IMG/VR virus record: IMGVR_UViG_3300010150_000259
Coordinates: 1 to 20,077 of that record
From: a virus
Direction: 5' to 3' (one strand)
Length of the DNA: 20,077 nucleotides
Shown: in pieces, positions 2,718-19,506 of the stretch
Layout of the letters: each line of letters opens with the position of its first letter
Numbering within the stretch: the first letter of the stretch is position 1
Made by a program: the position numbers and the translations under genes
Notes under the pieces: model-generated
Told to the model about the DNA's origin: nothing
Seen by the model: the letters and a program-made list of their open reading frames with translations, nothing else
Database searches by the model: none

Positions 2718-2922
2718 TCGCTTCTTCTGCCATTAATTTGGCAATACGGTATTCGATGTTTGCTAAGGCAGTGGAGTACGAATCTGCCGTACTACTATGT
2801 AGTGTGCTACCATCTTCAAACGCTAGGAGTGAATAATGCCAGACGTTATCAATGTCGGAGAACCACAATTTAATGTCAATCGTTAAGTTCCTTCTGCATT
2901 GTTGTAAGTTCTTCGTCAACAT
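2698..2922 (-). CDS. small hypothetical protein (74 aa, start uncertain)
   Basis: Unknown protein. The core (IKLWFSDIDNVWHYSLLAFEDG, ALANIEYRIAKL) alternates beta strands and a helix, somewhat like small DUF1508- or HicB-type folds, but I would not assign it. Two starts are possible. ATG 2922 has AGGAG nine bases upstream but lies 47 nt inside the preceding gene. An ATT codon at 2880 overlaps that gene's TGA stop and has AAGGA eight bases upstream, giving a 60-aa product. The longer form is listed. Its end overlaps the next gene by 20 nt. Confidence 0.5.
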   Translation of the reverse strand: MLTKNLQQCRRNLTIDIKLWFSDIDNVWHYSLLAFEDGSTLHSSTADSYSTALANIEYRIAKLMAEEANEVHRR

Positions 2923-3163
2923 ACTGTCGTACTCCTACGGGGTCAGGTTGCCACCCACTAGGCATAGGTAAAGGTGGGTTTGCTTCTTTTGCAGTCTCGA
3001 TAGTTTCGAGTGCTTTTTCATACTCAGGGATAGGAACCATGAGGACTGACCCATGACCCTCCCGAGTGATCTTAATTGTATGTCCTCTTCCACACAATGT
3101 CAAGCACAAATCGAAGTTGCTTTCGACTTCCTCGAAGGTCATCTCAATGATACTTGAATTCAT
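2876..3163 (-). CDS. Phd/YefM antitoxin-like protein (95 aa)
   Basis: Residues 7-55 follow the Phd/YefM antitoxin pattern. A helix of the type 'TFEEVESNFDLCLTLC' is followed by 'GHTIKITREGHGSVLMVPIPEYEKAL', matching the family's 'G..v.ITr.G...avL.p..eYe.l'. In known members this N-terminal half is a DNA-binding dimer and the C-terminal tail covers a Doc- or YoeB-type toxin. Here the tail (proline-rich, then VRQYVDEELTTM) does not look like a known toxin-binding tail, and no toxin gene is recognisable next door. It starts 1 nt after the stop of the upstream gene. It could neutralise a host toxin or act as an autorepressor. Family call moderate, role inferred. Confidence 0.55.
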   Translation of the reverse strand: MNSSIIEMTFEEVESNFDLCLTLCGRGHTIKITREGHGSVLMVPIPEYEKALETIETAKEANPPLPMPSGWQPDPVGVRQYVDEELTTMQKELND

Positions 3164-3164
3164 A

Positions 3165-3359
3165 TTAGTTAAAGCAGTAGGTCAGTGAATCAGAAGGAAG
3201 ACGACTTTGAAGGAACTCGACAATTTGGGCAAATCCTTCGGCACCATCGGCGTCGAATTGGAATTGAACCGTCTCATCATAACCATCATCGTCAGCAACG
3301 GTGATCTTACGCTCAGAAAAATAGAAGTAAGCGTGATCAATGAAATTAGGAGACATCAT
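3165..3359 (-). CDS. small hypothetical protein (64 aa)
   Basis: Unrecognised acidic protein (MMSPNFIDHAYFYFSERKIT..., ADDDGYDET). The start ATG 3359 follows directly after the gp5 stop codon (TAA-ATG), so it is translationally coupled to gp5. A second ATG follows immediately. The aromatic-rich strand and charged turn suggest a compact beta-alpha domain. No function can be assigned. Confidence 0.6.
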   Translation of the reverse strand: MMSPNFIDHAYFYFSERKITVADDDGYDETVQFQFDADGAEGFAQIVEFLQSRLPSDSLTYCFN

Positions 3360-5954
3360 TTAGTTAAGCATGACAGGTAGACCATAAATTTGAGTGGGAC
3401 CGAGGGCACACCCAAATGCAGCAAGACCAGTTCCGCACCCATGTGAGAGCAGTCCTGTTGTTACTTGATTAACGATAGCACCGCTACCGCCCGTTACGAT
3501 CTCACCTATGCCACCTGTTGGAGTGGACACTAGGGTCATGTGAGCGCCAGCATTAGATCCCGCAACGATGTCTGCCATTCCAGCAGCAGTTTTGGTACCT
3601 AGTGACATACGAACATGCATAGCAGGTGAGACTGATCCCATCGGGGCATCCATGCAGATATCTACAATGGATCCGTTCACCAGACTGTATGAACCAGTAA
3701 AGACTGGCATTGTCTGGAAGATCGCGATGATGTCCATTCTACCACATGCCAAGAAGGATGTGATCCATGATGCTTCATTCACGATCTCACCAGTTGCCTT
3801 GTTTGTGATAGAGGTCGCACTGGTGTGTACGTCAGGGGCATCAAGGGTGATGCCTGAGATCCCTTTCACTTTAACCTGGTTTCCTTGCAGTGTCAAGTCA
3901 CCCTGATATGCAATCGCGTGATCTCCTGCTTTGGTTTGTGTAGACTTTGCTTCCTTCTCACCTGCTTCGATCGATACATTCTTACCAGAAGCGATCTGAA
4001 CAGCATTTTCAATAGAATCAGATGCTTGCTTAGTCCACTGGTTGTTGTCCTGACCTAGTGGGTTACCACCACCACTACCGCCACCTTTTGCCTTAGCACC
4101 AGCACCATTAGAAGTGTGCTCGTTGAATGATCCTGAAACTTCAAGGTGGAAGTCACCCATCACTTTCAGATAGTAATCACCCTCAATAGTATGAACATGG
4201 TTGTTCTTGACATTATGAATAAGGTCGCGACCAATGATTTGTGTTTCGTTACCAGGAATATTTTGGTGCTCGTTACCTAATTTATCTTGGAAACTAGTAA
4301 CACCACCAGGACCAGAACGAATTCTCTTCTCTTTACCAGGTGTTGCATCATCAATATCTCTTGCACCATTCAGGAACAACTTAGTTTCCATCACATATGG
4401 ATTTAACTTCTGGAAGAACTTATCAAAGAAGTTTCCACCACCACCTTCATCACCAAAACTACTGCAATCATCAGAGTCAGAGTTACCACCAGGACCATAC
4501 AGTCCTTCACCAACGTCAGCACACTCGGTGGTACCAACTAATGGTAACCACCCCTTCGCTTTCGGTTTTCGCGCCTTCCTTCCACAATCAATAAACGATG
4601 CAATAATATCAACAATCAGTGCAATGATATTAAGAACGTTAGAGAAATTAGTTAACGCTGTAAAATCAATAGAGAAGAACTTGCTGACGGAGGTTGCAAT
4701 CTCACTAATCTTATCGATAGTGCTGATTGCTTTGAGAATTTTATTGAAGACCTTAGATACTGCTTTGATTGCTTTACAAATCGCCTTCTGAATATTTTTC
4801 AGTGCTTTGGTTACATAGTCAGCAATTTGATTGATAATTTTGTTAACGATGTCCATGACAAGATCAAATATCCCGTCTACAAAGTCTCCTATCATTCCCA
4901 TAATATTACCAATAGCATCTAACCAACCAGGCACAGGTTGACAGAAGATATTCTGAATGATGTTCTTGATCAATGTAATGATAGTAGTGACCACTGCCAG
5001 TGGGATGATCTTGGCACCAAATGAAACCACAGCATCAATCATCACTCTGATTTGCTGCGCTAGGATCTCCTTAATAGGAGCAACCATACCTGTAACAGCA
5101 TTAACAACAAAATTAGATACATTACTGATACTTTTTAGGATGTTGTTACCTTGCTGAATGTGACCTGAAACAACAGATACCAGACCACCAGCGCCATTAG
5201 ATCCTAATGAACCAATCTGTACACCAATATCATTCAACATTCGTGCTAGATCCTTAGAAAAGGAATCACTGGTACCAATAGGACCATGAATACCATCAGC
5301 AATACCACCTTCCATTGATGGTGGACCCAATGGGTTTGTGTATACATTAAATGGTGCTTCTACTTCTGCTCTACTAATAGCACCACGAGATTGCTCTTCA
5401 CCACCCTCAGGACCACCAGTAGTAGCACCCTGATTCTTAACAAATGGATGACCACCTTCAACATCTTCACCTGTCAGAGATTTTCTTTGAGGTGATGTAG
5501 TAGCGTACTCATCTTTCTCTGCCTCGGTATTATCAGCAATGACAGTCTTACTGACTTCGGTATCTTGACCTTCTTCTCCTCCTGAACCACCACCTTGATT
5601 AGTTTTCTTCTTAAATCCACGGAATGCACCAAGCACACAAGGTAGTTGTGCTTCATCACCATCCATGAAGAAACCCATCACGAATGCACCTACTTGCAAT
5701 TCACATGTAGATCCAGCATTCTTGATCTGTGGTTTATCATTAGGCAACAACACAGTTGCCCACGGTAATACCTCAGTAGGTAAGTCTTCTAGGTAAGTAG
5801 AGGATCCATCATCATTAGTTTTACCTTTCTGATGCCATCCCATGATACGAACTTTGACCCTACCTGTCTGAGCAGGATCTTCTACGCTCTCAACTTCACC
5901 AATCCACCAGGAGAAACCATCTCTACCTACAAAGTCAGTCTTAGTTCCAAGCAT
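3360..5954 (-). CDS. 5: baseplate central hub/spike protein gp5 without lysozyme domain (864 aa)
   Basis: Residues 15-112 form the gp5 N-terminal OB-fold, with the family pattern 'WWIGEVESVEDPAQTGRVKVRIMGWH', 'LPWATVLLPN' and 'GAFVMGFFMDGDEAQLPCVLG'. In T4 this is followed by a lysozyme domain and then a trimeric beta-helix spike. Here residues 113-225 are a Gly/Glu-rich linker, and about 230-455 are long hydrophobic and amphipathic helices with no lysozyme Glu/Asp/Thr arrangement. Residues 545-730 are a beta-helix-like stretch (HTIEGDYYLKVMGDFHLEVSG, YQGDLTLQGNQVKVKG), and the end is a glycine-rich tip of about 120 residues. It is far longer than T4 gp5 (575 aa). It overlaps the cpeT stop by 1 nt (TAATG) and has a TCTAAATA late element 31 nt upstream. 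Confidence 0.9.
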   Translation of the reverse strand: MLGTKTDFVGRDGFSWWIGEVESVEDPAQTGRVKVRIMGWHQKGKTNDDGSSTYLEDLPTEVLPWATVLLPNDKPQIKNAGSTCELQVGAFVMGFFMDGDEAQLPCVLGAFRGFKKKTNQGGGSGGEEGQDTEVSKTVIADNTEAEKDEYATTSPQRKSLTGEDVEGGHPFVKNQGATTGGPEGGEEQSRGAISRAEVEAPFNVYTNPLGPPSMEGGIADGIHGPIGTSDSFSKDLARMLNDIGVQIGSLGSNGAGGLVSVVSGHIQQGNNILKSISNVSNFVVNAVTGMVAPIKEILAQQIRVMIDAVVSFGAKIIPLAVVTTIITLIKNIIQNIFCQPVPGWLDAIGNIMGMIGDFVDGIFDLVMDIVNKIINQIADYVTKALKNIQKAICKAIKAVSKVFNKILKAISTIDKISEIATSVSKFFSIDFTALTNFSNVLNIIALIVDIIASFIDCGRKARKPKAKGWLPLVGTTECADVGEGLYGPGGNSDSDDCSSFGDEGGGGNFFDKFFQKLNPYVMETKLFLNGARDIDDATPGKEKRIRSGPGGVTSFQDKLGNEHQNIPGNETQIIGRDLIHNVKNNHVHTIEGDYYLKVMGDFHLEVSGSFNEHTSNGAGAKAKGGGSGGGNPLGQDNNQWTKQASDSIENAVQIASGKNVSIEAGEKEAKSTQTKAGDHAIAYQGDLTLQGNQVKVKGISGITLDAPDVHTSATSITNKATGEIVNEASWITSFLACGRMDIIAIFQTMPVFTGSYSLVNGSIVDICMDAPMGSVSPAMHVRMSLGTKTAAGMADIVAGSNAGAHMTLVSTPTGGIGEIVTGGSGAIVNQVTTGLLSHGCGTGLAAFGCALGPTQIYGLPVMLN

Positions 5955-7319: not shown

Positions 7320-8693
7320 CTATTTATTATAGGCTGGTAATGAATCTCTGCATAAAAACAGTTCTGTGGTCATTCCTGTGTTAGAATACACATGTTTGAC
7401 CCCTTTTACGAGGTATTTGCCCGAAAACATACGATCTTTTGGTAGTTTATTCTTATTCTTCTGTTGAGATGTAGGTATCTTCACCTTAATTACAGCACCT
7501 GCGAACATTCTGGTGTTTCCTGGTACCTTAATTGTTAGCGTATGCGTATTTAATAGGTACCAACGTTGAGATGCATATGATGAAGCATTAAGAATACTTG
7601 CACTCTCTTCCTCTGCACCACCATCCATATTGTTTGAATCCTGCTGTGTCATCTTAGGCAGAATTTTCATTCTGGATCTAGTTGGGTGTAGATCAAGAAA
7701 TTCTTCGATTGCTTCGAGATCGTATGGAAACTCTTTCTCTAAGGTTGATGCTTTCTTGAACAGTTGTAGGATTTGTGATACCACAGGACCCATTACAGTG
7801 CCTTCTGGACCTTCTGTATCGGTAGATGCACCTGAGGTGGGCAATGAACTCATTGTAGGCGCTGCCATCACAACACCAAAGGTTGTTGTTTTATAGATAC
7901 CATTCCTAAGTTTTTCTAATTGATTAGCACGATCAGGATATTTGATACTCTCAATCCTATTCATATCTGCTACGGGATCATTACCATTCACATTCTTCTG
8001 ACCATAGATGAATTCATTAATGGAATCCTGCTCACATAGCATATCAATCGATGCAAAATTATATCCATGCTTATTCTGCCAGAACAAAAATCCTGCTTGC
8101 TTCTTAGAAGTTCCTTTCTTGCCAGTCTTACTATTCCTACCTTTACCTACTCTGGAAACTTTATCAGTTAGATATGATATAGCATCAACAGGTCTCCAAT
8201 TAGGGCAGATCACATTCATAGGAGTGTGTGACTCAACAAAGATCTCTTTGTTAGGTATCTTTAAATGCTTCTTCAACATCGCCTGAACAAGATCTTGTTT
8301 TCCATTCTTCACACCAAACATACCGAATGCACGGTTTGCTTCATTGAAGTACATCTGCTCTGGTGCAAAATGTAGGATATACATCTTTGCTCTTTCTGAT
8401 TTCAGAACAGAACCAATCTTATACATCTTGAAGGTTGCTTTACATCTACCTTCCTTCCTTCCCTCTTCCTGACCAGCGAACGTGGAGAATTCAATATCCA
8501 GCATCTCAGTACCATACAATCTGGTATCTAAATCTGTGGAATCCAGAATACCAACATCCAATCGAATGAATGGCGAATCAATCGATTCAAACCAAACAAA
8601 TTCACTAATGATACTTTTGATGTCAAGAGGTTCATTATTACCACGTACATGTAAATCTGCTTTGGTTAGTTTATAAGACTTGGTGTCTGCCAT
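7320..8693 (-). CDS. putative baseplate hub protein, gp27-like (457 aa)
   Basis: Sequence identity to T4 gp27 is not obvious, but the layout fits a hub protein. The N-terminal beta-rich domain has 'FVWFESIDSPFIRLDVGILDSTDLDTRL' and 'GTEMLDIEF' (extended target-fit pattern seen in phage hub proteins). The C-terminal domain ends with 'FSGKYLVKGVKHVYS...TTELFLCRDSL', which matches the 'G.Y.V..v.H.....Y.T.l.l.RD' ending of gp27/Mu gp44-type hubs. Position also fits: it follows the two giant tail proteins, with only the metabolic insert separating it from gp5, its expected partner. Its start overlaps the preceding stop (TAATG). It could instead be another tail-tip protein. Confidence 0.6.
   Translation of the reverse strand: MADTKSYKLTKADLHVRGNNEPLDIKSIISEFVWFESIDSPFIRLDVGILDSTDLDTRLYGTEMLDIEFSTFAGQEEGRKEGRCKATFKMYKIGSVLKSERAKMYILHFAPEQMYFNEANRAFGMFGVKNGKQDLVQAMLKKHLKIPNKEIFVESHTPMNVICPNWRPVDAISYLTDKVSRVGKGRNSKTGKKGTSKKQAGFLFWQNKHGYNFASIDMLCEQDSINEFIYGQKNVNGNDPVADMNRIESIKYPDRANQLEKLRNGIYKTTTFGVVMAAPTMSSLPTSGASTDTEGPEGTVMGPVVSQILQLFKKASTLEKEFPYDLEAIEEFLDLHPTRSRMKILPKMTQQDSNNMDGGAEEESASILNASSYASQRWYLLNTHTLTIKVPGNTRMFAGAVIKVKIPTSQQKNKNKLPKDRMFSGKYLVKGVKHVYSNTGMTTELFLCRDSLPAYNK
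7321..7328 (-). promoter_or_regulatory. late promoter-like AATAAATA upstream of cp12
   Basis: Minus-strand AATAAATA at the very end of the hub gene, 25 nt before the cp12 ATG. It differs from TATAAATA at one base and has the same spacing to the gene as the other late elements here. Because it also encodes the hub C-terminus it could be chance. Confidence 0.35.
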
Positions 8694-11600
8694 TACGCTA
8701 TGCTAACAGGTGAGTTAAAGATATCCGATGTAATCCCAAACCTAGGTCTGGCATAATCATTTGCTGGTATTATATAGGGTTCACTACTGCCACCACCACC
8801 TGATGGAGCAGCAGCAGCAACTTCGTCACCACCACCACCCTGAGGAGGTAAGGTGGCAGCAGAAGGACCAGCACCCTCTTTTGCTTCTGCTGCTGCATCA
8901 TCTTCCTTCTTCTGCATTCCTGCTAGAAGATCTGCACCAAATGTTTTATCACTAGCAGAAATACCACCATCATCATCCATTGCTGATGCATCCGTAGCAT
9001 ACTTCTGCAACATACTCAACTTACTGGCAATATTATCCTTTACACTTTCAACAGTGGGTTTCTTTTGTCCTCCATCACCTGTTGATGGTTCAGTTGCACT
9101 CAAAGTATCTGCTGATGTGCCCTGTGAAGTAGCACTCACACCATCATGAGCACCCCAACCCATACCATCAAAGATCTTTTGTTTACCATCCTTCATGACG
9201 ATATCACCAGTCTGATATTTCTTATTAGGATCAAACTTAGGAATACCACCTTTCTTCACTTGCTTCAATGCTGTCATGATCTTGTCAGGAGTCATTGCAC
9301 TGCTTTGACCTGGATAATGGAACTTACCATCCATATTAGGTAGTGACGCAAACTCCTGAGATAATCCTTGCATGAATTCTCTATCAGTCATCTTACCCGC
9401 TAACCAGGATTCTGCTCCACGCGCTTTTAAGTTTGCCTCAATAATAATCTTATCTTGATTAGCAGCATTGTATAGATCTTTATCTGGATCTAAACCTGCC
9501 TTTCTTGCTCGTTCAGCAAGGAAACGTGGAAGTTGTTGATACTTACCTACTGCACCTGATGCCTGACCAATAACCTGAGAAATGGTCATCTTAGTAGCAC
9601 CTGGAAGAGTGGTACTAGGATACATCGCTTCATAATTACCACCAGATTCTTTACCAGCAACCAGATTCAACAACGGTGCCCATTTACCACCCGAAGAGAA
9701 TCCATCCATGGCACTAGCATCTGATGCATAGTTTCCTAACATCCCAGCGGATTTCCCAAAGAAATCCATAATTGCACCAGTGGACTTATATTGTGCCTCT
9801 TGCTGTGTTTCACCCGCCCCAGGAGACGCGCTAGGACTGCCTGAGGGCGTTGTAGTTGAACCATTGGGACTAGACACAGTTGTCTTTGCTCCCTTGATTG
9901 GTGCTACGGATCCTGATGACTCTGCCACGGTGGAATCACCACCCATAAATCCTCTCGCCTTAGCGCGAATGATGTTACCACCAGAACCTTTTTCTCCATC
10001 CTTAGTAAGGTGCCAGAGATCCCAACGTGCTCCATCACCACCCCACGCCGTAGGACCATAGTTATCATTGCGAGGAAGTAAACCATCTTTACCAGACGCT
10101 GCCTCCGCATGAGTCATCACATTCTTGACATTAATATCATTAGGAGACCACCCTCTGTTCTTTGCAATATTAGCAATCTCTTTGGACATTGAAGTGACTT
10201 GATCATCACTAGGCCAACGATAATTACCTGCCCCACCTGACATCGCAGCGAGAGACAATCCAATACCTGTACTATTTCTTAAATATGTGTGTGCAACACC
10301 ACCTCTTTGATCATAGGGGTGTGCTCGATATACACTACCATCACCTTGAATGATACCGTGGTACTTACCTTTCTGTTTGAAGTTACCACCACCAGCGGTC
10401 CAGTGCAAGAACATCTTGCCACCTTTCGCCATTCTATCCATTCCAGCAAGACGATTCTCTTCCTGAGAACCATCACGACGGTGATTCTTTGTACCTGATA
10501 ACTTACCACCCTTAGCAAATGCAGGGAGTCCATATCCACCCGCTTTCGCCTGCTGCATTCTCATGTTAGTCAGACCATTGCCACCCCTAGTTGCAGGAGT
10601 ATCGAATGGTACAACGAATGCATCACCACCACCAGAACGTTTACCTACCCATTCAGTACCATGACCGATGAATGAGGTTGACCTTCCACCATCAAGTGAT
10701 ACAGGATATCCAGATTGAGGACCGTTAATCCATCCACCACCTGATGCTTTACCAACTGGACCACCTACTGCTTTCTCTTCTAACCTTTCTATTTGTTCTT
10801 TGATGGGTTTATCTTTACCCAACATCTTCTGAATGAAGTTAAGACTTTCTAACTGCTTTGTTAGTTGCTTCTCAGTCTCTTCTTCACCCTTATCCTCCAC
10901 CATCGCATCGACACTTTCATTAGTAGGATCTTCATTAAATCCACCAGCAACTGCAACTGCTGCGGTACCTGCTAAGAATGCTCCTGCTACCCAAAGACCT
11001 CTACCTTTAACAAAGGCAAACAGTCCTTTCATTAATGAAGTAGTAGTAGTGAATAATGTGGTAATAAAAGAAGTAAGACCTTTAACTAATCCACCCCCTT
11101 TCGCTAGTTTAAAGAATAAACCAAGACCTAGTTTTGCTACGGCAGCAGGAGCAAATATGAGTCCCAGTGCTGTAATAAATTTGATAATACCAAATACACC
11201 ACCCAAACTTAGTGGGTTCTCTAAAAATTCTACGAGACCGTTAAGTCCCATCTTAACTAATGCACCATAGGTTTCGATAAGAAACTTACCAATAGATTGT
11301 ATTGCCTCGAACAGTTTCTTTACTTTTTTGGTGTTCGCTGGATCACCCAACCAATCCATCAATCCATAAAGGAGCATTGATTTGAAGATACCCCCAAACA
11401 GTGAAGCAAGACCTTTAAAGAATCCTAGTGACTTAGCAGCAATTGCTTTACTCTTCTCACCAATAGAACTCCTCTTACCTTTACCTTCTTGCTTATTTTC
11501 TGCCTTCTTATCTTGTTCTAACCCTTCTGCTTTCTTATCTTTACGTTTCTGATCTTTGAGAAGTTTCTTCTCATCTGCCATCGCATCTCTACGTTGATCA

Positions 11601-11845
11601 ATCAACCCTTGCTGCAACGAAAGAGTTTGTGAATAAAAATTCTTGAATGAGGCACTCATATCCTCAACTAAAATAGCAATACTATTGGTAGTCGCACCAA
11701 GACTGTTGACTGCTTTGATATTTTTAACAAAACCCACTGTTGGTGAAGTGATTGTCTTATCACCAATCTTCACAGTAATTCCACCCTTACCAGTAGTGGA
11801 AGGAGGTGTTACATACTTATATAATCTTGCTTTGGTTTCTGCCAT
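8693..11845 (-). CDS. giant tail protein with amidase and GH104-like transglycosylase domains (1050 aa)
   Basis: Residues 55-125 are charged coiled-coil; 135-300 are hydrophobic helices including 'YGLMDWLGDPANTKKV' at 160-175, shared with the upstream paralogue. Residues 475-612 look like an Amidase_2/PGRP domain: 'FLHWTAGG' (H481), 'GVAHTY..N.TGIGLSLA' (H519), 'VMTHAEA' (H579) and 'RWDLW' (D609), giving a plausible zinc set H481/H579/D609. Residues 722-865 resemble lambda R endolysin (GH104): 'GKESGG' with E733, 'SGAVGKYQQLPRF', 'NQDK', 'EFASLPN..GKFHY'. A YASDASAMD-type motif recurs at 706 and 949. The protein ends in Gly/Ala-rich linkers and 'NDYARPRFGI'. It probably lies in or on the tail and cuts the cell wall at entry. 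It could also be the tape measure. Confidence 0.75.
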   Translation of the reverse strand: MAETKARLYKYVTPPSTTGKGGITVKIGDKTITSPTVGFVKNIKAVNSLGATTNSIAILVEDMSASFKNFYSQTLSLQQGLIDQRRDAMADEKKLLKDQKRKDKKAEGLEQDKKAENKQEGKGKRSSIGEKSKAIAAKSLGFFKGLASLFGGIFKSMLLYGLMDWLGDPANTKKVKKLFEAIQSIGKFLIETYGALVKMGLNGLVEFLENPLSLGGVFGIIKFITALGLIFAPAAVAKLGLGLFFKLAKGGGLVKGLTSFITTLFTTTTSLMKGLFAFVKGRGLWVAGAFLAGTAAVAVAGGFNEDPTNESVDAMVEDKGEEETEKQLTKQLESLNFIQKMLGKDKPIKEQIERLEEKAVGGPVGKASGGGWINGPQSGYPVSLDGGRSTSFIGHGTEWVGKRSGGGDAFVVPFDTPATRGGNGLTNMRMQQAKAGGYGLPAFAKGGKLSGTKNHRRDGSQEENRLAGMDRMAKGGKMFLHWTAGGGNFKQKGKYHGIIQGDGSVYRAHPYDQRGGVAHTYLRNSTGIGLSLAAMSGGAGNYRWPSDDQVTSMSKEIANIAKNRGWSPNDINVKNVMTHAEAASGKDGLLPRNDNYGPTAWGGDGARWDLWHLTKDGEKGSGGNIIRAKARGFMGGDSTVAESSGSVAPIKGAKTTVSSPNGSTTTPSGSPSASPGAGETQQEAQYKSTGAIMDFFGKSAGMLGNYASDASAMDGFSSGGKWAPLLNLVAGKESGGNYEAMYPSTTLPGATKMTISQVIGQASGAVGKYQQLPRFLAERARKAGLDPDKDLYNAANQDKIIIEANLKARGAESWLAGKMTDREFMQGLSQEFASLPNMDGKFHYPGQSSAMTPDKIMTALKQVKKGGIPKFDPNKKYQTGDIVMKDGKQKIFDGMGWGAHDGVSATSQGTSADTLSATEPSTGDGGQKKPTVESVKDNIASKLSMLQKYATDASAMDDDGGISASDKTFGADLLAGMQKKEDDAAAEAKEGAGPSAATLPPQGGGGDEVAAAAPSGGGGSSEPYIIPANDYARPRFGITSDIFNSPVSIA

Positions 11846-14800
11846 TTACTTTGTAAGCAGGGGAGATGATGCGGGAGAAGAGTTACCACCACCGCCACCA
11901 GCATTGACTGTCTTAGTCTGGATAACTGGTTGCACGGCAATCATCATATCAGGTTTAGCGGGTTGCTTATCTCTACGTACCTTTGCAGCAGATAGAGATT
12001 TTAATTTATCTACTTTTGTATTTATGCTAGAAGGTGCAGTGCTCTTAGACTTTGCTGCATCATTGATTTTGGTAGCATATGCAGCACCATCAGCAACAGG
12101 TCCTATACCATTCAACGGTGTCTTTGGCATACTTGTGGATGTTGGTATAGGACTTGGTGGCATTCCTGAACCATCCATTGCTGATGCATCTGATGCATAC
12201 TGCCCTAACATACCAACAGATTTCTTAAAGAAATCTACAATACTACCAGTTGATTTGTATTCTTCCTTCTTTGCTTCTGTGGTACCACTACCACTGTTGT
12301 CACCTGTTTTAGCAGTAGATCCACCACCACCTGTGTTACCACCACCAGCATCGCCAGATGCAACATAAGATCCAGCACCATCCTTACTACCAGAACCACT
12401 CAGATTCTCCCAGTGCCATGCTTCATGTCCATCAGGATTGTCTGTTTCATATCCTGGTATCTGACCAAAACCAAATTTGCCTGCATTCTTCCTTAACCAT
12501 TTATATGATGCATTAGTGTACCAAAGGTCAACTGCTTTACCTAAACCATGATTAGATGTTCCTGGATATGCAGCAGTACCAGGTCCTAATTGATCATAAA
12601 GTTGCTTCTGCTTATCATATGTTCTATATGATGAGTTGATTCTAAAATGAGTTCCCATCTTGAATCCAGACTCTGATGCTGATTGCATCATTGCCTTGAA
12701 CTGTGGTGCAATTCCCTTAGCAAGTTTATGACCACTACCAATAGATACTAGATCTTCATCAGGTAGTTGTCCATTGACAGTACCACCCTTAGCAAATTTA
12801 CCCCAATCGGAAACAGGTGTCTTTGCAGTATCTTTCCGTTTCAGAATAACAGGATCTACAAATCTCTTAGTTCCTTGGTTGTGTGCGCGAATAGCACCAC
12901 CCTTTGCCATCTCAGGAAGATCTGGTGGTTTGATCTCTGACGTACCATCACCATCATTCTCAGCGGCACCCATCAATGCCTCCATACCAGGCATTCCCTC
13001 CTTAGGATCACGTACAATCTTCCTTTTTGCAAAATCACCACCAATCGCCGCAGCAATTGGATCATCTATATCTTTCAGACCAGTCTTAGCAAGCAAACCA
13101 AGTAATTGCTCTGCTGCCCATTCACCAGCGAATCCACCAGCAGCACCAGTAACGAAACCAGGAACACCACCGAATGGAGCACCAATAGCAAAACCAGCAC
13201 TATATCCTAATAAACCACCTAATGCTTTCAGTATAGCGTTGATAGGTGACTCACCAAACACACCATAATCTAACAATGCCATGATAGAGGCAATCAGTGT
13301 ATCAATACCACCGATCTTCATGCTGGATTTCGCAGCACCAAGAAACTCTCGCATGGTCTTGAACCCAGGATTCTTAAATCCTGATTTTAAGAAACCCCAA
13401 ACAGATTTTCCTGCCTGCTTTACCTGTTGCCCTCTTGGTAACTCAGCAAACTCTTGAATCTTCTTTGCCTGAGGATTCTTTTCTAATACAGGTTTGATGA
13501 AGGCTTTAACTTTTGTAGTTACCTTTGCAGCAAGTGCCTTAGGATTCTTTGCCAGTTCGACAACATCACCAAGACTCTTCCCCGCTTTCTTACCAAAGTC
13601 CCAGATGCCTTGACCCATGCCCTTGACATTATCAATCAATCCAGCAGCACGAGCACCAAACCAATTGTTAAGTCTGCCTACCTGCTTTAATGCAAAACTA
13701 CCACCCTCTTTGAGTTTTGTCTTGGCAACAGCACCTGCATCGACAACACCACCCCAAAGATTTCTAAGAACACCAGTGACACCCTTGTTCTTTGCTGCTG
13801 CTTTTGTAAGTTTCTCACTACCCTCCTCAACAACATCAGTAGCAACACCAGTGGTAAGGCGTTGCGTTGCCGCTTTCTGACCCTGCGCCTGTTGGAACGG
13901 TGATACTGGTTTTGGTTTTACAGTAGGTACTGGTGGTTTCTTGAATAGACCATTGATCCTAGTTGCCGCTGCCCCAAACTTCTGAGTGATCTTACCGCGA
14001 AGAGCCTTTATCCTCCTAAGTCTCTTCGCTCTCTTCATATCTTTGAGACGTTGCTTAGCAGTTCTACCATCTCTGCCAGGTGTCTTACGTCTAATTTTGG
14101 GTCTTTTTGGTCCACATCCAGCGGTCTCAACAGCGTCTAGCGCCTTGCCCAGACCAAACATGAATTTGACATCACCTATCAACTTCCATGGCATTAGGAT
14201 GCGTGTTGCCAACTGAATCGAAGCGAGTCCCGCTAAGATTTTAAGGACGCCAAACATCTTATCGAGAGCACCCCCGATCATACCCTTGTCGGGGTCATGT
14301 CCAAATACGTCAGTTATGCCATCCAGAACCAAACCAACACCCATACGGGTGAAGAAGTTGGCAAATTTCCAAATAGCAGCAAAGAAACCTATTACTTTTG
14401 TTATCTTCTCTTTATTTTTTGGATCACCTATCCAATCCATCACACTCATTATGACGGGTATAGCAACTAACTTAACTAAACCACTAATGAGCAATGTCAT
14501 TGGTTTGAGTAGTTTCTTTAACCACCCAAACCTAGACTTTTTCTCTTTCTTACCTTCTTCTTCCCCTAACTTCTCTTCACCTTTCTCATTCAGAGTTTCT
14601 TGCTTCTTCTCTGCTAACTTATCTTGCTGTAAACCTTTCTTCCTACCAAGTGCATCACTCTTTGCTTCAATTATCTTCTTCCTATGTTCACTCTCTTCCG
14701 TTGATATATCTACCTCTTCTTGCAAGAATCCTACTGTGGACTCTTGATACATCTGGACTAATGTTTTAAACTCTGTAAGTTGTACACCAATATTTGTTAC

Positions 14801-14917
14801 AGCACCACCCATACGGTTTTGGGCAATGGTCATTTTTTTAAATACCTTGCCCAAATCATCAGAACCAGTATCTTGACTGGGACTGACCGTAATATATTTT
14901 CTTAGAGTTGCTGCCAT
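11846..14917 (-). CDS. giant tail protein with M15/VanY-type peptidase domain (1023 aa)
   Basis: Same build as its neighbour: 'RKYITVSPS' start, charged coiled-coil 55-130, hydrophobic helices 135-250 with 'VMDWIGDPKNKEKI' at 159-172, then long Lys/Ala-rich helices 270-530 and a glycine-rich hydrophobic patch at 565-610. Residues 750-840 form an M15B/VanY DD-carboxypeptidase-like domain: 'INSSYRTYDKQKQLYD', 'GTSNHGLGKAVDLWY' (H790, D797), 'EAWHWE' (catalytic E832, ligand H835). Near the end 'YKSTGSIVDFFKKSVGML' and 'YASDASAMDG' repeat those in the 1050-aa protein. The peptidase would cleave D-Ala-containing peptides of host murein. It follows the gp26 module, where long-tailed phages place the tape measure gene. 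Start overlaps the 59-aa ORF stop (TAATG). Confidence 0.75.
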   Translation of the reverse strand: MAATLRKYITVSPSQDTGSDDLGKVFKKMTIAQNRMGGAVTNIGVQLTEFKTLVQMYQESTVGFLQEEVDISTEESEHRKKIIEAKSDALGRKKGLQQDKLAEKKQETLNEKGEEKLGEEEGKKEKKSRFGWLKKLLKPMTLLISGLVKLVAIPVIMSVMDWIGDPKNKEKITKVIGFFAAIWKFANFFTRMGVGLVLDGITDVFGHDPDKGMIGGALDKMFGVLKILAGLASIQLATRILMPWKLIGDVKFMFGLGKALDAVETAGCGPKRPKIRRKTPGRDGRTAKQRLKDMKRAKRLRRIKALRGKITQKFGAAATRINGLFKKPPVPTVKPKPVSPFQQAQGQKAATQRLTTGVATDVVEEGSEKLTKAAAKNKGVTGVLRNLWGGVVDAGAVAKTKLKEGGSFALKQVGRLNNWFGARAAGLIDNVKGMGQGIWDFGKKAGKSLGDVVELAKNPKALAAKVTTKVKAFIKPVLEKNPQAKKIQEFAELPRGQQVKQAGKSVWGFLKSGFKNPGFKTMREFLGAAKSSMKIGGIDTLIASIMALLDYGVFGESPINAILKALGGLLGYSAGFAIGAPFGGVPGFVTGAAGGFAGEWAAEQLLGLLAKTGLKDIDDPIAAAIGGDFAKRKIVRDPKEGMPGMEALMGAAENDGDGTSEIKPPDLPEMAKGGAIRAHNQGTKRFVDPVILKRKDTAKTPVSDWGKFAKGGTVNGQLPDEDLVSIGSGHKLAKGIAPQFKAMMQSASESGFKMGTHFRINSSYRTYDKQKQLYDQLGPGTAAYPGTSNHGLGKAVDLWYTNASYKWLRKNAGKFGFGQIPGYETDNPDGHEAWHWENLSGSGSKDGAGSYVASGDAGGGNTGGGGSTAKTGDNSGSGTTEAKKEEYKSTGSIVDFFKKSVGMLGQYASDASAMDGSGMPPSPIPTSTSMPKTPLNGIGPVADGAAYATKINDAAKSKSTAPSSINTKVDKLKSLSAAKVRRDKQPAKPDMMIAVQPVIQTKTVNAGGGGGNSSPASSPLLTK

Positions 14918-15096
14918 TAGAGGGAGTTCTTCTGTTTAGATCTTTCTCGTTCTTCTTCTTGGAGGTATGCCAAGAGCAAGTTAGTATAAACTTCTCGTTC
15001 CCAAGGTATCATGGTTTCCAACTCAGCGAGTGAATACTTATGATGATGCATTAAGGCGAAGTTAGTCTTGTAATAATTTTCAAGACTACTATGCAT
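14917..15096 (-). CDS. 59-aa tail assembly chaperone-like ORF, candidate -1 frameshift extension of gp26
   Basis: Frame from ATG 15096 to TAA 14919-14917 (60 codons with stop), in the -1 frame relative to gp26. The peptide reads MHSSLENYYKTNFALMHHHK, then YSLAELETMIPWEREVYTNL, and ends in a charged Glu/Arg/Lys helix. The 'H.YSL.EL..M..WE' pattern resembles the downstream half of tail assembly chaperone pairs that sit just before the tape measure gene. There is no Shine-Dalgarno before this ATG, only 5 nt after the gp26 stop, so it is made either by reinitiation or by frameshift at 15108-15114. The fusion would have 295 residues: 232 from gp26, four linking (RIAL), then 59. Confidence 0.7.
   Translation of the reverse strand: MHSSLENYYKTNFALMHHHKYSLAELETMIPWEREVYTNLLLAYLQEEERERSKQKNSL
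15063..15088 (-). repeat. 8-bp perfect hairpin downstream of gp26 slippery site
   Basis: On the minus strand TAGTCTTG (15088-15081) and CAAGACTA (15070-15063) pair perfectly around a 10-nt AT-rich loop. It begins 19 nt after the U_UUU_UUC heptamer. A four-base stem (GCAT/ATGC) could form in the gap. It is a candidate frameshift stimulator, although the spacing is longer than the usual 5-9 nt. Confidence 0.5.
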
Positions 15097-15101
15097 CAGG
15101 G

Positions 15102-15803
15102 CTATGCGAAAAAAGAAGCGAGTCCTTCAAGTGTAACAGTATTCACAACTTTGGTCTTAGGATTCTCAACATCGAACTCATGCACTAGTTTAGGCATGGT
15201 GTCGAAGAATGTTTGAATCATACCGAACTGTTCATTGTTCATCTGACCAAGGAATTCCTTTGCTTCATTCTTAGTGAATGAATCATAGGTCTCTTCACCT
15301 TCATATACTTTCTTGATGCAACTAGCAGCAAGATCAAACACATCATCAATATCAGGTTCGTCTTTCATGTTTCGATCGACGAATGATTCAAGAGCAGGAT
15401 ACTTCATCTCAATCTTGACAGTTTCATTCAGTTTGATAATCTTTTTGTGTTCCTTAGGAACGATTACCTCAACATCTTCAAGGTTGATAGCAACATCAAC
15501 TTGGGTTTCACCATCATCTTGACATGTGACTTTGAATTCACTAACTTCACCAACTGCCTTGGATCTGATCTTCAAGAATAGATATTCAATCTCAAATGTT
15601 GCAAGGTTGTCAACTGTTCTAAGATTAGTACACGCCTTCAAGATAGTCTTGACTGCTTTGAACATCTCTTTCTCGTTCTGACTCTCCATAGCGAGATAAA
15701 GTAGTTTCTCCTCTTTTACAAGGAAAGGTCTATACGTGACCTTTGTTCCACTGATGGGCATTTTGCACTCATAATCAGGGATAACAAGAGTAGGAAGTGG
15801 CAT
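15102..15803 (-). CDS. 26: gp26-like baseplate hub / tail assembly protein (233 aa)
   Basis: Matches the T4 gp26 family (T4_baseplate): a beta-type start 'LPTLVIPDYECKMPISGTKVTYRPFLVKEEKLLYLAMES', then helix 'EKEMFKAVKTILKACT', 'FEIEYLFLKIRSKAVGE', a Cys-containing beta segment and C-terminal helices 'QFGMIQTFFDTMPKL'. T4 gp26 is 208 aa, so the length is close. In T4 it takes part in building the central baseplate hub. Its position just before giant tail proteins, with a second small ORF in the -1 frame, suggests a role like the G/GT chaperones of other tailed phages. A TCTAAATA late element lies 21 nt upstream. The last codons TTT-TTC-GCA-TAG contain the slippery heptamer. Confidence 0.75.
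   Translation of the reverse strand: MPLPTLVIPDYECKMPISGTKVTYRPFLVKEEKLLYLAMESQNEKEMFKAVKTILKACTNLRTVDNLATFEIEYLFLKIRSKAVGEVSEFKVTCQDDGETQVDVAINLEDVEVIVPKEHKKIIKLNETVKIEMKYPALESFVDRNMKDEPDIDDVFDLAASCIKKVYEGEETYDSFTKNEAKEFLGQMNNEQFGMIQTFFDTMPKLVHEFDVENPKTKVVNTVTLEGLASFFA
15108..15114 (-). other. candidate programmed -1 frameshift site U_UUU_UUC
   Basis: At the end of gp26 the zero-frame codons TCT TTT TTC GCA TAG place T_TTT_TTC exactly in X_XXY_YYZ register. Slipping back one base keeps both tRNAs paired (Phe/Phe) and continues as CGC ATA GCC CTG ATG, directly into the 59-aa ORF. An inverted repeat lies downstream. The heptamer, its register and the open -1 frame are seen directly. Use in vivo is inferred from the known conserved frameshift of tail chaperone genes in other phages. 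Confidence 0.6.
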
Positions 15804-15824
15804 AGTATGAAATTACGATGTAAT

Positions 15825-15832
15825 TATTTAGA
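15825..15832 (-). promoter_or_regulatory. late promoter-like TCTAAATA upstream of gp26
   Basis: Minus-strand TCTAAATA in the 33-nt spacer between the tail tube-like gene and gp26, 21 nt before the gp26 ATG. It shares GTCTAAATAAT with the element before gp5. Being the clearest intergenic copy, it supports TCTAAATA as a variant of the late octamer in this phage. Confidence 0.55.
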
Positions 15833-15836
15833 CAGG

Positions 15837-16583
15837 TTATCCGATGCTAAACCTTTGTACATCAGGATTGCCCGAACCAGATATTCTGGTTTGAATCTCA
15901 TCATAACTGATAACACTTCTCTTACCACCTCTTGTTTTGAGTGTGTGAGGGGATACTTGATCAAAACGATACCGTTCAAAGTAGAACTGTATATCCATTT
16001 GTAACAAATTTGTCTGTTCGTTATCAAATGTCATTGTACTAATATTAGTTGGGAATGCACCATACATCTTCCACACAGCAGATGCCTGTGATGGATGCAA
16101 ACCTGTTGACTTAGGAAACCCCTTAGGTTTGATCTTAAAGTTTGCTCCATGCTCCCACTTAACGATCATCATATCTGTCACATAATTATCATAGAAACCC
16201 ACAGTATTGTCAGAGTCAGAGGCAGCAGCATTCATCCATTGCTCAAAGAACATTCTATGCTGCATATCTTTGGTAACTAAGAATGAAATAGTAATCTCAG
16301 AGTTAGTTTGACCTGTCACGAATCGACGCATCATACCAAAGTTGTTAACTTCACCAGTAGTGATTGCTCTACTAGGGACAGTTACATTGGATGCATAATA
16401 ATTAATATTACGCATAGTATTTCTTGCCCGATTGCGTATCTGCGGGTCTATGGTATTATTCTGCACATCAGAGAATACTGCTGGCAATGGCAAAATGATC
16501 TGATACAGATTGCTAGTAGCAGGAGCACCTGCATTGGTTGCAATTTGTTCTCTGAAATCAGTAAATCTGTTGGGGGTTGCCAC
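15837..16583 (-). CDS. tail tube family protein (gp54/gp19-like, 248 aa)
   Basis: Starts at GTG 16583, one base overlapping the TAG of the gene before it, with GGAG eight bases upstream. The protein has the T4 gp19-type tail tube pattern: 'NLYQIILPLPAVF' start, 'NINYYASNVTVPSRAIT' and 'MMRRFVTGQTNSEITISFLVTKDMQHRMFFEQWM' in the middle, 'FYDNYVTDMMIVKWE', and a C-terminal 'GAFPTNISTMTFDNEQTNLL' with 'FYFERYRFD'. It is longer than T4 gp19 (163 aa) and shorter than gp54 (320 aa). gp48 lies next to gp54 in T4, and here gp48 is less than 1 kb away, so I favour the baseplate-tube junction protein gp54 over the main tube gp19. Confidence 0.65.
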   Translation of the reverse strand: MATPNRFTDFREQIATNAGAPATSNLYQIILPLPAVFSDVQNNTIDPQIRNRARNTMRNINYYASNVTVPSRAITTGEVNNFGMMRRFVTGQTNSEITISFLVTKDMQHRMFFEQWMNAAASDSDNTVGFYDNYVTDMMIVKWEHGANFKIKPKGFPKSTGLHPSQASAVWKMYGAFPTNISTMTFDNEQTNLLQMDIQFYFERYRFDQVSPHTLKTRGGKRSVISYDEIQTRISGSGNPDVQRFSIG

Positions 16584-17050
16584 TATCTACTCCAAATAAT
16601 ACTACTAGGTACATCAATGTAACGACCAGCAACATCCATTGTGAATTGCTCCAATGGTAGTGGTACTTTCATTTCTTTTAGATCAATAGAAGGCACAGTT
16701 TTAATATTACCTGCATTTGACATAAAGTATTTATGATGGCAACGCATAGGATACGATAGTGATCCCCCACCCCACGTTCTAGCAATACCTGTTCGTGTAC
16801 TTGGTCGTAGATAATGTAAATTACCACCAGAGAATTGTTTCTTAGGTAGATCTACATCAGTTACTAATACCATAGGGAATTTATCATAATACTGCAATCC
16901 CTCAGTTTGTGCAGAATATGAAAAGAATATAACATCACCTACATTGAACCCTGTGGAATCTTGTAGTCCATACATAAACTGAGATCGATACCATTCTTTG
17001 GATTGCTTGCTACCACCAGCAAGATCTTTGACATCGTTGAAGATACTCAT
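16583..17050 (-). CDS. conserved phage protein of unknown function (155 aa)
   Basis: Soluble, aromatic-rich protein. It starts 'MSIFNDVKDLAGGSKQSKEW', followed by 'GDVIFFSYSAQ', 'YYDKFPMVLVTDVDL', 'GGNLHYLRP' and 'RCHHKYFM'. I recall the 'YYD.FP.V......F.G.NLHYL' pattern from other T4-like phage proteins of unknown function, but cannot name the family. Start ATG 17050 overlaps the gp4 stop by 4 nt and its stop shares one base with the next GTG, so it is tightly coupled between gp4 and a tail tube-like gene, suggesting a virion assembly role. Confidence 0.7.
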   Translation of the reverse strand: MSIFNDVKDLAGGSKQSKEWYRSQFMYGLQDSTGFNVGDVIFFSYSAQTEGLQYYDKFPMVLVTDVDLPKKQFSGGNLHYLRPSTRTGIARTWGGGSLSYPMRCHHKYFMSNAGNIKTVPSIDLKEMKVPLPLEQFTMDVAGRYIDVPSSIIWSR

Positions 17051-17481
17051 ACCTTTAATTCGTGTTCGGTCAGTATCATAAATCTCATTCTTCTATCAAG
17101 ACAATACTCTTTCGCTGCTTTCCATTTAGCATCATTCACAGCATATGTCTTCACTTCACTAATATATCTCTTCGTTACTCTTTTAGACTTCTTCGGCGGT
17201 ACGGTTTGTGCAGCGGGTTTAACCTCAATGATGTACTTTTCAGTCTTGCCAGTTTTAGTTCGTGCTCGCACATAAAAGTCTGGAAAATAACGATGGGGAC
17301 GGTTATCGACAGGACTGATATATGGAATGACGATCTCTTCGCTACCCCATTCAAGAACATTCTCATTCTTATCGCACCACATCATGAACTTTCTTTCCCA
17401 TAAACTTCTATAAATAATATTTGTGGGATCACCTTTATACTTATGAGTGTTTGACGGTCTAAACTTTCCTGAATAACTCAT
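17047..17481 (-). CDS. 4: head completion protein gp4 (144 aa)
   Basis: Family signature 'MSYSGKFRP..THKYKGDPTNIIYRSLWERKFM' at the start, then 'CDKNENVLEWGSEEIVIPYISPVDN', 'HRYFPDFYV' and 'IIEVKP'. T4 gp4 is 150 aa and is needed to complete filled heads before tail joining. P67-D68 and E86-V87-K88 form a PD-(D/E)xK nuclease-like motif. I start it at ATG 17481 and not at 17511, because the extra ten residues are not family-like and MSYSGKF matches known starts. The start codon overlaps the divergent gp48 start in one CATG. No strong Shine-Dalgarno is seen. A GATAAATA late-like element lies inside gp48 at 17572-17579. Confidence 0.85.
   Translation of the reverse strand: MSYSGKFRPSNTHKYKGDPTNIIYRSLWERKFMMWCDKNENVLEWGSEEIVIPYISPVDNRPHRYFPDFYVRARTKTGKTEKYIIEVKPAAQTVPPKKSKRVTKRYISEVKTYAVNDAKWKAAKEYCLDRRMRFMILTEHELKV
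17409..17416 (+). promoter_or_regulatory. T4-type late promoter TATAAATA for gp48-gp53
   Basis: Perfect TATAAATA on the plus strand, 63 nt upstream of the gp48 ATG and inside gp4 on the opposite strand. It is the only consensus late element seen upstream of the two plus-strand genes. Transcription would start near 17424 and read the antisense of the gp4 N-terminal codons before reaching gp48. Confidence 0.6.
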
Positions 17482-18529
17482 GCCACAAAAGAATAAAAAA
17501 GCAAGAAACAATCCTCAGTCCGCTAAGAAAAATAGTGGGATGGGAAAGATTGGCACTGATGGCGCTAGACTTATTTATCCATTACAGTTGCCTCGTGGTC
17601 CGAGGGGTAAGGGGGACGGGTCAATATCTAGACGCTCTACAAGTTCTACACGTAGTATGGACTACTTGAAGTTCTCTATCTACGACTCTGAGAAGAATAA
17701 TCCATATACTTATGCTGGTCAACCTGGTAAGGGTGGCGGTAAAGCAAAGACAGGTACAGCAGATCAGATCATGAAGTCTGTGTACTTATACTTACCACAT
17801 GATTTAAGTGAGACATTCAGCACTACTTATGACAAAGCAACATTAGGACCATTCGGTTCTGCTGTTGTGGAAGCAATGAAGAATAACGATATGTCAAATA
17901 TTGTTGATAAGGTGCAGCAAGGAGCAAATGCAGCAAAACCAGAGATTGCGTTTAGTGCAGTCTCTCAGATCTTCAACGGTTTGAATAGTTTTGCTGGTAC
18001 TGATGGCGCTCTGGATAAGAACCAGATGGCAGCATTAGCAAAGGGTAAGGTATTCAACCCATACCAAGAAACAGTGTTCAAAGGTGTTAACTATCGTTCT
18101 CACAACTTTACCTTTGATATGTCACCACGTAATGCAAAGGAAGCAGAGAACATTGTCAAAATTGTTCATACACTCAGGGATGCAATGCTACCTGGTACAA
18201 GTGGTGAGGCAGCAAGATGGTTAACTATCCCACGTTTCTTTAAAGCAGAACTGATTAGATACAATCCAAGTGCTGGTAGCAAGACTGCAAAGGGTGGAGG
18301 TGAGATAACTCGTCCTGAAACATTAGCAACACTACTTACGTATCCTGTCAATATGGTGTTGACTAACATGCAAGTCAATATGACACCATCAGGACAAAAT
18401 AGTTCAATCAGAGGTCTTGCTGATGATGGTACAGACTTCGGTCCTGCATCATACAGAATGACATTGACATTTGATGAGACTGCGTTCATCACTCGTGATA
18501 TGTACAAAAACGGCGCTAAGAACAAATGA
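17480..18529 (+). CDS. 48: baseplate tail tube cap gp48 (349 aa)
   Basis: Matches cyanophage gp48 in length (T4 gp48 is 364 aa), in its pairing with gp53, and in pattern. It has a basic disordered start (MPQKNKKARNNPQSAKKN), 'ARLIYPLQLP', 'SVYLYLPHDLSETFSTTYDKATLGPFG', 'NPYQETVFKGVNYRSHNFTFDMSPRNAKEAENIV', 'LTIPRFFKAELIRYNP' and 'LTNMQVNMTPSG.....YRMTLTFDETAFITRDMY'. The last part is the beta-layer shared by tube initiator proteins. gp48 caps the baseplate and starts tube polymerisation. ATG 17480 is used, though ATG 17540 (MGKIGTDG) is possible; neither has a clear Shine-Dalgarno. It overlaps gp53 by ATGA. Confidence 0.82.
   Translation: MPQKNKKARNNPQSAKKNSGMGKIGTDGARLIYPLQLPRGPRGKGDGSISRRSTSSTRSMDYLKFSIYDSEKNNPYTYAGQPGKGGGKAKTGTADQIMKSVYLYLPHDLSETFSTTYDKATLGPFGSAVVEAMKNNDMSNIVDKVQQGANAAKPEIAFSAVSQIFNGLNSFAGTDGALDKNQMAALAKGKVFNPYQETVFKGVNYRSHNFTFDMSPRNAKEAENIVKIVHTLRDAMLPGTSGEAARWLTIPRFFKAELIRYNPSAGSKTAKGGGEITRPETLATLLTYPVNMVLTNMQVNMTPSGQNSSIRGLADDGTDFGPASYRMTLTFDETAFITRDMYKNGAKNK
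17572..17579 (-). promoter_or_regulatory. late promoter-like GATAAATA for gp4
   Basis: Minus-strand GATAAATA within gp48, 90 nt upstream of the gp4 ATG; one base from TATAAATA. Since no spacer exists between gp4 and gp48, any gp4 promoter must lie in this coding sequence. Weaker than the plus-strand copy, so listed with caution. Confidence 0.35.
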
Positions 18530-19506
18530 CACATTATTTTGAACTAATCCCAAATGTAAAGGTACGCATATCTTCTTTTAGGAAGAATAATGTTGAACCT
18601 TACATTGTTGCTAAGAATATCTTCCGACGAATCAAGATTCGAGATATTGTCCAAGAGGATATCTTAGGTTTTGAGCAATATTCTATTGTTAATAATGAAA
18701 GTCCTTATCAGGTTGCAAATGAACTTTATGGTGACCCAGAATTAGACTGGGTGATATTGCTATGCAACAACATTATCAACATTTATAATGAATGGCCGAT
18801 GGATGAGCAAGAGTTATATAAGTATGTTGATACTAGATATAATAGTCAAATCAACCAAATCCATCATCATGAAACTTTTGAAGTAAAGAGTGATCAAGGT
18901 GATACTCTCTTACATGAAGGTACTGTTGTTAATAGCACTTTTAGGTATTATAGACCTGATGGAACACAAGTAACTCCTATCGTATATCCAGTATCAAACT
19001 GGGAACATGAAAGGAATCTAAATGATGAGAAAGCAAATATTTGGGTTTTACGTAATGACTACGTAGAACAGTTTGTTGATGAATTTGAAAGTCTTCTGGA
19101 ATATCTACCAAGTGAAGAAATTGGTGATGGTGATCAGGTTAAGATGACACCAAATTCTGTCCAAGAGGTATTCATCACCGCCAAGGACATATATTCTACT
19201 CGATATGGTCTCTCACCATCTATTGCATTCGCTGGACAGCAAGAACTTGGTTCCAGAGTTATTCGTACTACAACGTTAGACTCTGGTGCAACAGTTACTA
19301 ATAGTGATGGTGGATCCACAGCAACTGCTGAGAACCTTGTGAACTCTTCTGGTGTTGTGGCAGGAACCACAGATGCTAGTAGCACTGCTAATAGTAACGG
19401 TGCTAGCAGCAGCAGTTCTTCTTCCAGTAGCAGCAGTAGCAGCAGTGGTTCTTCTTCTAGTTCTGGATCCTCTGGTTCTAGTGGGTATGGATATGGTGGT
19501 TACTAA
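18526..19506 (+). CDS. 53: baseplate wedge protein gp53 with Ser-rich C-terminal extension (326 aa)
   Basis: Residues 55-100 carry the gp53 hallmark 'ESPYQVANELYGDPELDWVILLCNNIINIYNEWPM', equivalent to T4 'ANAIYGNPQLYWVLLMCN'. The core to about residue 200 equals T4 gp53 (196 aa), which links neighbouring baseplate wedges. Residues 200-326 are an extension: Thr/Ser-rich to 290, then a nearly unbroken Ser run with a few Gly (294-319), ending GYGYGGY. Start ATG 18526 overlaps the gp48 stop (ATGA). The last 29 nt overlap the 3' end of the glutaredoxin-like gene on the other strand. Confidence 0.85.
   Translation: MTHYFELIPNVKVRISSFRKNNVEPYIVAKNIFRRIKIRDIVQEDILGFEQYSIVNNESPYQVANELYGDPELDWVILLCNNIINIYNEWPMDEQELYKYVDTRYNSQINQIHHHETFEVKSDQGDTLLHEGTVVNSTFRYYRPDGTQVTPIVYPVSNWEHERNLNDEKANIWVLRNDYVEQFVDEFESLLEYLPSEEIGDGDQVKMTPNSVQEVFITAKDIYSTRYGLSPSIAFAGQQELGSRVIRTTTLDSGATVTNSDGGSTATAENLVNSSGVVAGTTDASSTANSNGASSSSSSSSSSSSSSGSSSSSGSSGSSGYGYGGY
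19405..19482 (+). repeat. serine-codon low-complexity tract in gp53
   Basis: Twenty-six codons made almost wholly of AGC, AGT, TCT and TCC (with a few Gly codons) encode the Ser-rich end of gp53. Both Ser codon families are mixed, so this is not a pure trinucleotide repeat; the protein composition appears to be what is kept. Confidence 0.8.

Follow-up and report, generated by a model that had tools for sequence, protein, structure and literature searches.

A candidate −1 ribosomal frameshift joining gp26 to gp51 in a T4-like cyanophage and its relatives

Xu, Hendrix and Duda reportedly described in 2004 a tail assembly chaperone frameshift that is conserved among long-tailed phages, lambda with its G/GT pair included. 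The slippery site of lambda is G GGA AAG. In phage P2, which has a contractile tail, E and E+E' are produced by a slip on T TTT TTG upstream of the tape measure gene, and the frameshift of E. coli dnaX occurs on A AAA AAG, between a Shine-Dalgarno-like (SD-like) element located about 10 nt upstream and a hairpin located downstream. The 2004 chaperone frameshift is cited in PMC9024508 and PMC10885494. Tail assembly chaperones of T4-like phages were identified by Vladimirov, Gautam and Davidson (2022, Virology 566:9-15), according to the passages that cite them: the PRFect paper of 2024 (PMC10885494) does so for phages that have both a short gene and a gene for a long fusion, and the Adele paper of 2025 (PMC12846349) for poly-T slippery sites in T4-like TAC-N genes. 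For the TAC locus of Vandenendeviridae and Andersonviridae, PMC12846349 proposes a −1 frameshift on the grounds that a poly-T motif is conserved and the −1 frame is open. Chaperone or cofactor roles have been proposed for T4 gp26 and gp51 (P1 paper, PMC9024508). Finally, Sullivan et al. (2010, PMC3037559) noted that gp51 of cyanophages and marine vibriophages lacks the ~200 N-terminal residues present in its T4 counterpart and described it as reduced; the word 'frameshift' is absent from the portion of that text available.

We analysed a virus record of 20,077 bases from a T4-like cyanophage, called the window throughout, whose nearest isolates found are S-WAM1, S-SZBM1 and P-RSM6. On its minus strand, gp26 is followed by a 59-aa gp51-like ORF and then by giant proteins of 1023 and 1050 aa (Table 1). 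The original prediction had placed gp26, the heptamer, the 59-aa ORF and the hairpin correctly, and the two giant ORFs do come directly after the pair. The 3' end of gp26 reads TCT TTT TTC GCA TAG; the claim that T_TTT_TTC stands among the last sense codons in exact register is thus borne out. In-register heptamers of the XXXYYYZ type occupy 19 of the 6179 codon positions of the 20 window genes, and that of gp26 alone falls among the final codons of its gene. Translation confirms that the −1 frame runs across the junction as F-F-R-I-A-L-M-H-S-S, without a stop, into the 59-aa ORF, and no SD-like stretch precedes the ATG of this ORF (15096), as had also been read. The comparison with lambda G/GT made at the outset fits, both in gene order and in the predicted likeness of the gp26 N-terminal domain to the HK97 chaperone. 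Common to both are a short chaperone gene, a −1 slip at its 3' end (here a predicted one), a downstream domain in the −1 frame and one or more large tail genes next; the window differs in its N-terminal protein, which is longer and belongs to PF12322, and in its slippery sequence, T TTT TTC. Elsewhere in the window, a 326-aa protein (18526-19506, plus strand) carries a long C-terminal Ser/Gly-rich run.

Table 1. Positions of the gp26/gp51 features in the window
Feature	Position	Strand	Evidence
gp26 ORF, 233 aa, candidate short tail assembly chaperone (TAC-N)	15102..15803	-	PF12322 E 5.8e-66; phrog_150 E 7.6e-71
gp51-like ORF, 59 aa (candidate TAC-C)	14917-15096	-	phrog_634 'baseplate hub assembly catalyst' E 3.1e-26
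−1 frame from the heptamer: R-I-A-L + 59-aa gp51-like ORF	14917..15117	-	
Slippery heptamer T TTT TTC, zero-frame register	15108..15114	-	
Zero-frame stop TAG, one sense codon (GCA) past the heptamer	15102..15104	-	
Possible upstream stimulator: SD-like GAAGGA in Glu-Gly codons, 8 nt ahead of the heptamer	15123..15128	-	
Predicted composite stem-loop: outer 15098-15091/15051-15044, inner 15088-15081/15070-15063	15044..15098	-	centroid fold
1023-aa protein with VanY domain, directly downstream; presumed tape-measure-like partner	11846..14917	-	

The window gp26 matches PF12322, the T4 gp26 family, with 222.8 bits (Pfam curated cut-off 24.5), and its AlphaFold (AF2) model has a pLDDT of 87.5. 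Residues 1-93 of the model align best with 3fgx (uncharacterised, Z 7.8), 2ob9 (the HK97 tail assembly chaperone, 7.4) and 3klu (YqbN, 6.9), the next structure scoring 2.2, bearing in mind that a Z under 8 may reflect just a common arrangement. A Foldseek search of the model against the PDB gave nothing with E below 0.001, and the best hit of a gp26 profile among PDB sequences had an E of 0.045. Modelling supports a gp26 N-terminal domain that is TAC-like and resembles the HK97 chaperone. The same three structures lead (Z 7.3-8.0, next 4.9) for the model of a natural in-frame gp26-gp51 fusion, found at 2501-3391 of a 236-kb IMG/VR contig (L098), in which the C-terminal tail is partly helical and of low confidence. 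The slippery site of this locus is two bases shorter than that of L106, either a real change or an assembly error. The 59-aa ORF shows a weak match to the C-terminal part of phrog_150 (E 4.3e-4) and covers positions 61-117 of phrog_634, that is, the tail only; judged by these matches, it is the C-terminal domain of gp51. In T4 gp51, by comparison, residues 1-201 match PF12322 (E 3.9e-52) and residues 147-246 match phrog_634. Hence T4 gp51 is a gp26 paralogue with the same tail, and T4 encodes the short and long versions of one protein separately. In T4 and Aes508, gp51 holds a gp26-like body and the C-terminal tail in one ORF, whereas the window gp51 has no body. A duplication tree placed the gp26 and gp51 proteins of T4 and Aes508 on one side of a branch with a support of only 79/56; it would fit a single duplication in the T4/Aeromonas lineage without demonstrating it.

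Alignment of gp26 3' ends, put forward originally as a check, revealed that both the heptamer and the open −1 frame are conserved. The first set comprised 125 sequences, the window included, of which 3 are cut at a contig end (L030, L079, L097). For the codon counts, L098, the window itself and copies were left out, and each of the 98 remaining distinct loci carries T TTT TTN in register (97 TTC, 1 TTG). A profile search with 12 diverse gp26 proteins found no conserved stretch, and single-protein queries replaced this profile for fetching distant loci; the gp26 of KVP40, used as a query, returned 2 loci only. Queries with distant gp26 proteins of Stenotrophomonas and Sinorhizobium phages yielded a second set of 80 loci, mostly 27-40% identical to the query apart from three near-copies; 4 were cut, 19 were copies and 57 were counted. 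The heptamer is present in 56 of the 57, within 8 codons of the stop in 51 and at 8 codons before the stop in 5 more, which fell just outside the initial scan. Beyond the heptamer, gp26 continues for 8 sense codons in L151, L177, L196, L197 and L211 and for 3 in L189, L195 and L200, which makes the spacing between slip site and stop variable. The single failure, L145 (a 159,514-base contig), has five T where its relative L144 keeps the site with six, the gp26 of both being 99% identical to Ps15 gp26. With five T, both gp26 and the −1 frame are broken, and the missing T is perhaps a homopolymer error. Among 16 chosen isolates, 14 have T TTT TTC, TTT, TTG or TTA at this place; VAP7 (L131) and K483 (L132) have C GTT TTT or A CTT TTC instead of T TTT TTN, with the −1 frame still open, and these may be slippery sites of a different type, comparable to the GTTTTT described in Vandenendeviridae.

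Codon choice at the site is also constrained. The terminal Phe-Phe pair is encoded by TTT TTC in 97 of the 98 distinct loci, against 6 of the 102 Phe-Phe pairs located internally in these genes (Fisher p 1.6e-48, uncorrected for relatedness); since many loci are related, this test and the shuffles used below overstate independence. In T4, where a separate gene encodes the long form, gp26 reads TTC TTT at the corresponding place. We ruled out a chance heptamer, given that it is the only gene-end case in the window and that TTT TTC is nearly fixed in relatives.

The frame entered by a −1 slip is likewise maintained. It is open for at least 45 codons in 56 of the 57 second-set loci, whereas the +1 frame is open over this length in none (0/57), and a +1 shift was therefore rejected. 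In L005 the −1 frame runs off the contig. Within the window clade, the DNA between the heptamer and the ATG varies while the −1 peptide R-(I/V)-A-L is kept, Ala-Leu being encoded by GCC CTG in the window, GCG TTA in S-WAM1 and P-RSM6 and GCA TTG in S-SZBM1. In the wider set the −1 residues vary, and the fourth −1 codon has T as its middle base in 97/97. A tblastn search with the −1 peptide found 602 records; among the 60 matches listed, all begin before the residue of the ATG and 59 within the Phe-Phe of the heptamer, reaching phages KVP40 and those of Sinorhizobium and Aeromonas.

We then considered RNA structure downstream of the heptamer. The 8-bp perfect hairpin of the original prediction is present, but the 19-nt spacer regarded there as the weak point is not necessarily one: the hairpin forms the inner part of a longer predicted stem, which starts 9 nt past the heptamer. 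The centroid fold of the window (88 nt) has a z of −2.19, and a 70-nt fold of L001, identical to the window here, has a z of −3.99; in ten close relatives z ranges from −2.3 to −6.2, with a partly different register of the outer stem. Overall, z is below −1.65 in 57 of 101 folds and lies between −0.3 and +1.2 in, for example, L032, L038, L041, L051, L052 and L055 (in this set, the cut in L138 came 3 nt early, and L133, L136 and L137 start inside the heptamer). Structure after the heptamer is common, not universal. The window clade shows little covariation: a single pair has changes on both sides, a count not above that of 485 of 500 shuffles, most measures are near the shuffles, and two outer-stem registers compete. 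The consensus fold of the clade and the fold of the window sequence alone disagree in the outer stem, which means that the outer stem rests on energy and not on covariation.

In a sister group, the stem shows compensatory changes. The alignment held 48 of the 67 loci of the L058-L126 range, 7 being copies and 12 being left out by name; these 12 were picked by eye after the folds had been seen, as their post-stop sequence differs or is shifted, a choice that favours the stem. The stem, named as 11 bp, starts 5 nt past the heptamer and covers the ATG. It contains 29 double-changed cells against 11.0 in shuffles, with 0 of 500 shuffles as high, while two of the five measures, pairs with a double change and further pair types, were not above shuffles; RNAalifold kept 7 of the 11 pairs. 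One covarying pair is U-A in 21 loci, G-C in 14 and A-U in 12. It has changed 7 times on the best gp26 protein tree, of which well-supported branches force at most 2 per pair type. In this pair the wobble base of an Ala codon tracks the middle base of a Val/Glu/Ala codon, a link beyond what protein coding alone would require. Searches for other RNA elements gave one Rfam match in 14700-15500, with an E of 0.4 and far below the gathering score, and no terminator in 14700-17100.

Upstream of the heptamer, the Glu codon of the SD-like element is GAG in 65 of 94 relatives, compared with 781 of all 2375 Glu codons, which looks like a preference for an SD-like GAGG; as the loci are related, this excess is suggestive only. 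A putative SD-like GARGG would fit an upstream stimulator of the dnaX type. The two systems are alike in having an SD-like element upstream and a hairpin downstream of the slippery site, and differ in the heptamer and in the outcome, the shift shortening the product in dnaX and lengthening it for gp26.

The main alternative to a fusion is that gp51 is a separate 59-aa protein made by termination and reinitiation, the ribosome passing from the TAG to an ATG 5 nt on, the heptamer being incidental. Since the window ORF does have an ATG, separate initiation would still be available to the window taken alone, and an in-frame ATG lies within the first 12 −1-frame codons in 82 of 113 distinct loci (L138 was entered one codon off, in the same frame); annotators start gp51 at this codon, for example in P-SSM4, P-RSM6 and S-SZBM1. 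However, such an ATG is missing in 31 of the 113 loci, and 24 have none of ATG, GTG and TTG; we therefore rejected a separate gp51 as a general rule. For the ATG-less loci a frameshift would be the simplest route to translation of a conserved domain. Reinitiation also fails to account for codons before the ATG that are kept as −1-frame protein, for heptamer codons fixed far past codon bias and for the gp26-like body fused in T4 gp51, and we judge it very improbable. On the side of annotation, gp51 is unannotated in four isolates that have no such ATG (ACG-2014i, ACG-2014d, Syn10 and S-CAM4). It is unannotated in S-WAM1 too (L040, 1386-1973), where the annotated gp26 start is too far downstream, giving 588 nt for a homologous frame of 699 nt.

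A mixed outcome would be compatible with frameshifting: mainly fusion, with some reinitiated free gp51 wherever an ATG exists, its level kept low by a stem over that ATG. The 82 loci with an ATG and the stem that covers it in the 48-locus sister group speak for it; an SD-like motif at only 2 of the 82 ATGs speaks against it, and we consider it unlikely. Finally, the two ORFs could be one gene split by a miscounted homopolymer. A six-T run is error-prone and other counts do occur in L098 and L145, yet the same in-register run in 98/98 and 56/57 loci, from many assemblies and isolates, is decisive against this explanation, to which we give almost no credence. From the comparative evidence, we infer that a −1 frameshift on T TTT TTC yields a gp26-gp51 fusion, with a probability of about 0.93.

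According to this frameshift reading, most ribosomes would end at the gp26 stop and release TAC-N of 233 aa. A fraction would slip by −1 on T TTT TTC, both Phe-tRNAs re-pairing with UUU, probably aided by the stem-loop that starts 9 nt downstream and perhaps by the SD-like GAAGGA 8 nt upstream. The slipped ribosomes would pass the gp26 stop and produce TAC-NC, a fusion of 295 aa (232 + 4 + 59 residues). Short and long forms together would probably chaperone, and presumably bind, the tape measure or hub protein encoded next. The gp51 of the window lineage would then be mainly the C-terminal domain of the fusion, and the two forms would correspond in T4 and Aes508 to two genes, 26 and 51.

The N-termini of the giant proteins of the window (8693-14917, minus strand) are homologous (26% over 209 aa, E 2e-13), and the two proteins share a stretch 61% identical over 54 aa that ends in YASDASAMDG; one has a VanY domain and the other Amidase_2. 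They may be paired tape-measure-like proteins. A profile search gave neither of them a match named tape measure; phiM12 has in the corresponding region, one small gene further on, a protein annotated as tape-measure-like, with weak matches to tape measure profiles.

Compared with the published T4-like chaperones, the locus has in common the type of phage, a short and a long form and poly-T sites (as cited in PMC12846349), whereas the title of the Vladimirov paper stresses a route other than frameshifting. The Vandenendeviridae and Andersonviridae locus is similar in that its second part is annotated as a separate hypothetical gene, and differs in its invariant motif, GTTTTT, being likened to gp26 by description only (PMC12846349). 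The gp26 genes of phiM9 and RHph_I9 use T TTT TTG as P2 does, again a likeness by description only. The original prediction knew of no description of frameshifting for T4-type gp26. We saw no report of the cyanophage gp26/gp51 junction among the literature matches listed; T4-like tail assembly chaperones were published in 2022 according to the citing papers above. A tail chaperone frameshift is thus already known in kind, while we have seen no printed account of this stem-loop, of the SD-like element or of a lack of free gp51.

If the fusion is made, the ~200 residues missing from gp51 (Sullivan et al. 2010, PMC3037559) would be gp26, joined by frameshifting. The 'baseplate hub assembly catalyst' would be given a definite function, namely as the tail of the long form of the chaperone, and it would be explained why gp51 often goes unannotated where the ATG is missing, as in the four isolates named above. 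The gp26/gp51 junction offers a conserved site suited to a simple reporter test. We think it reasonably likely that all of the following hold jointly: frameshifting would be ancestral in the T4-like supergroup, most members would have no free gp51, the stem-loop would both drive the slip and hide the gp51 start, and T4 genes 26 and 51 would be the two frozen outcomes of an old recoding event, through a duplication that made one lineage independent of frameshifting. Should this ancestral reading be true, the gp51 called 'reduced' in hundreds of cyanophage and vibriophage genomes would be an annotation error.
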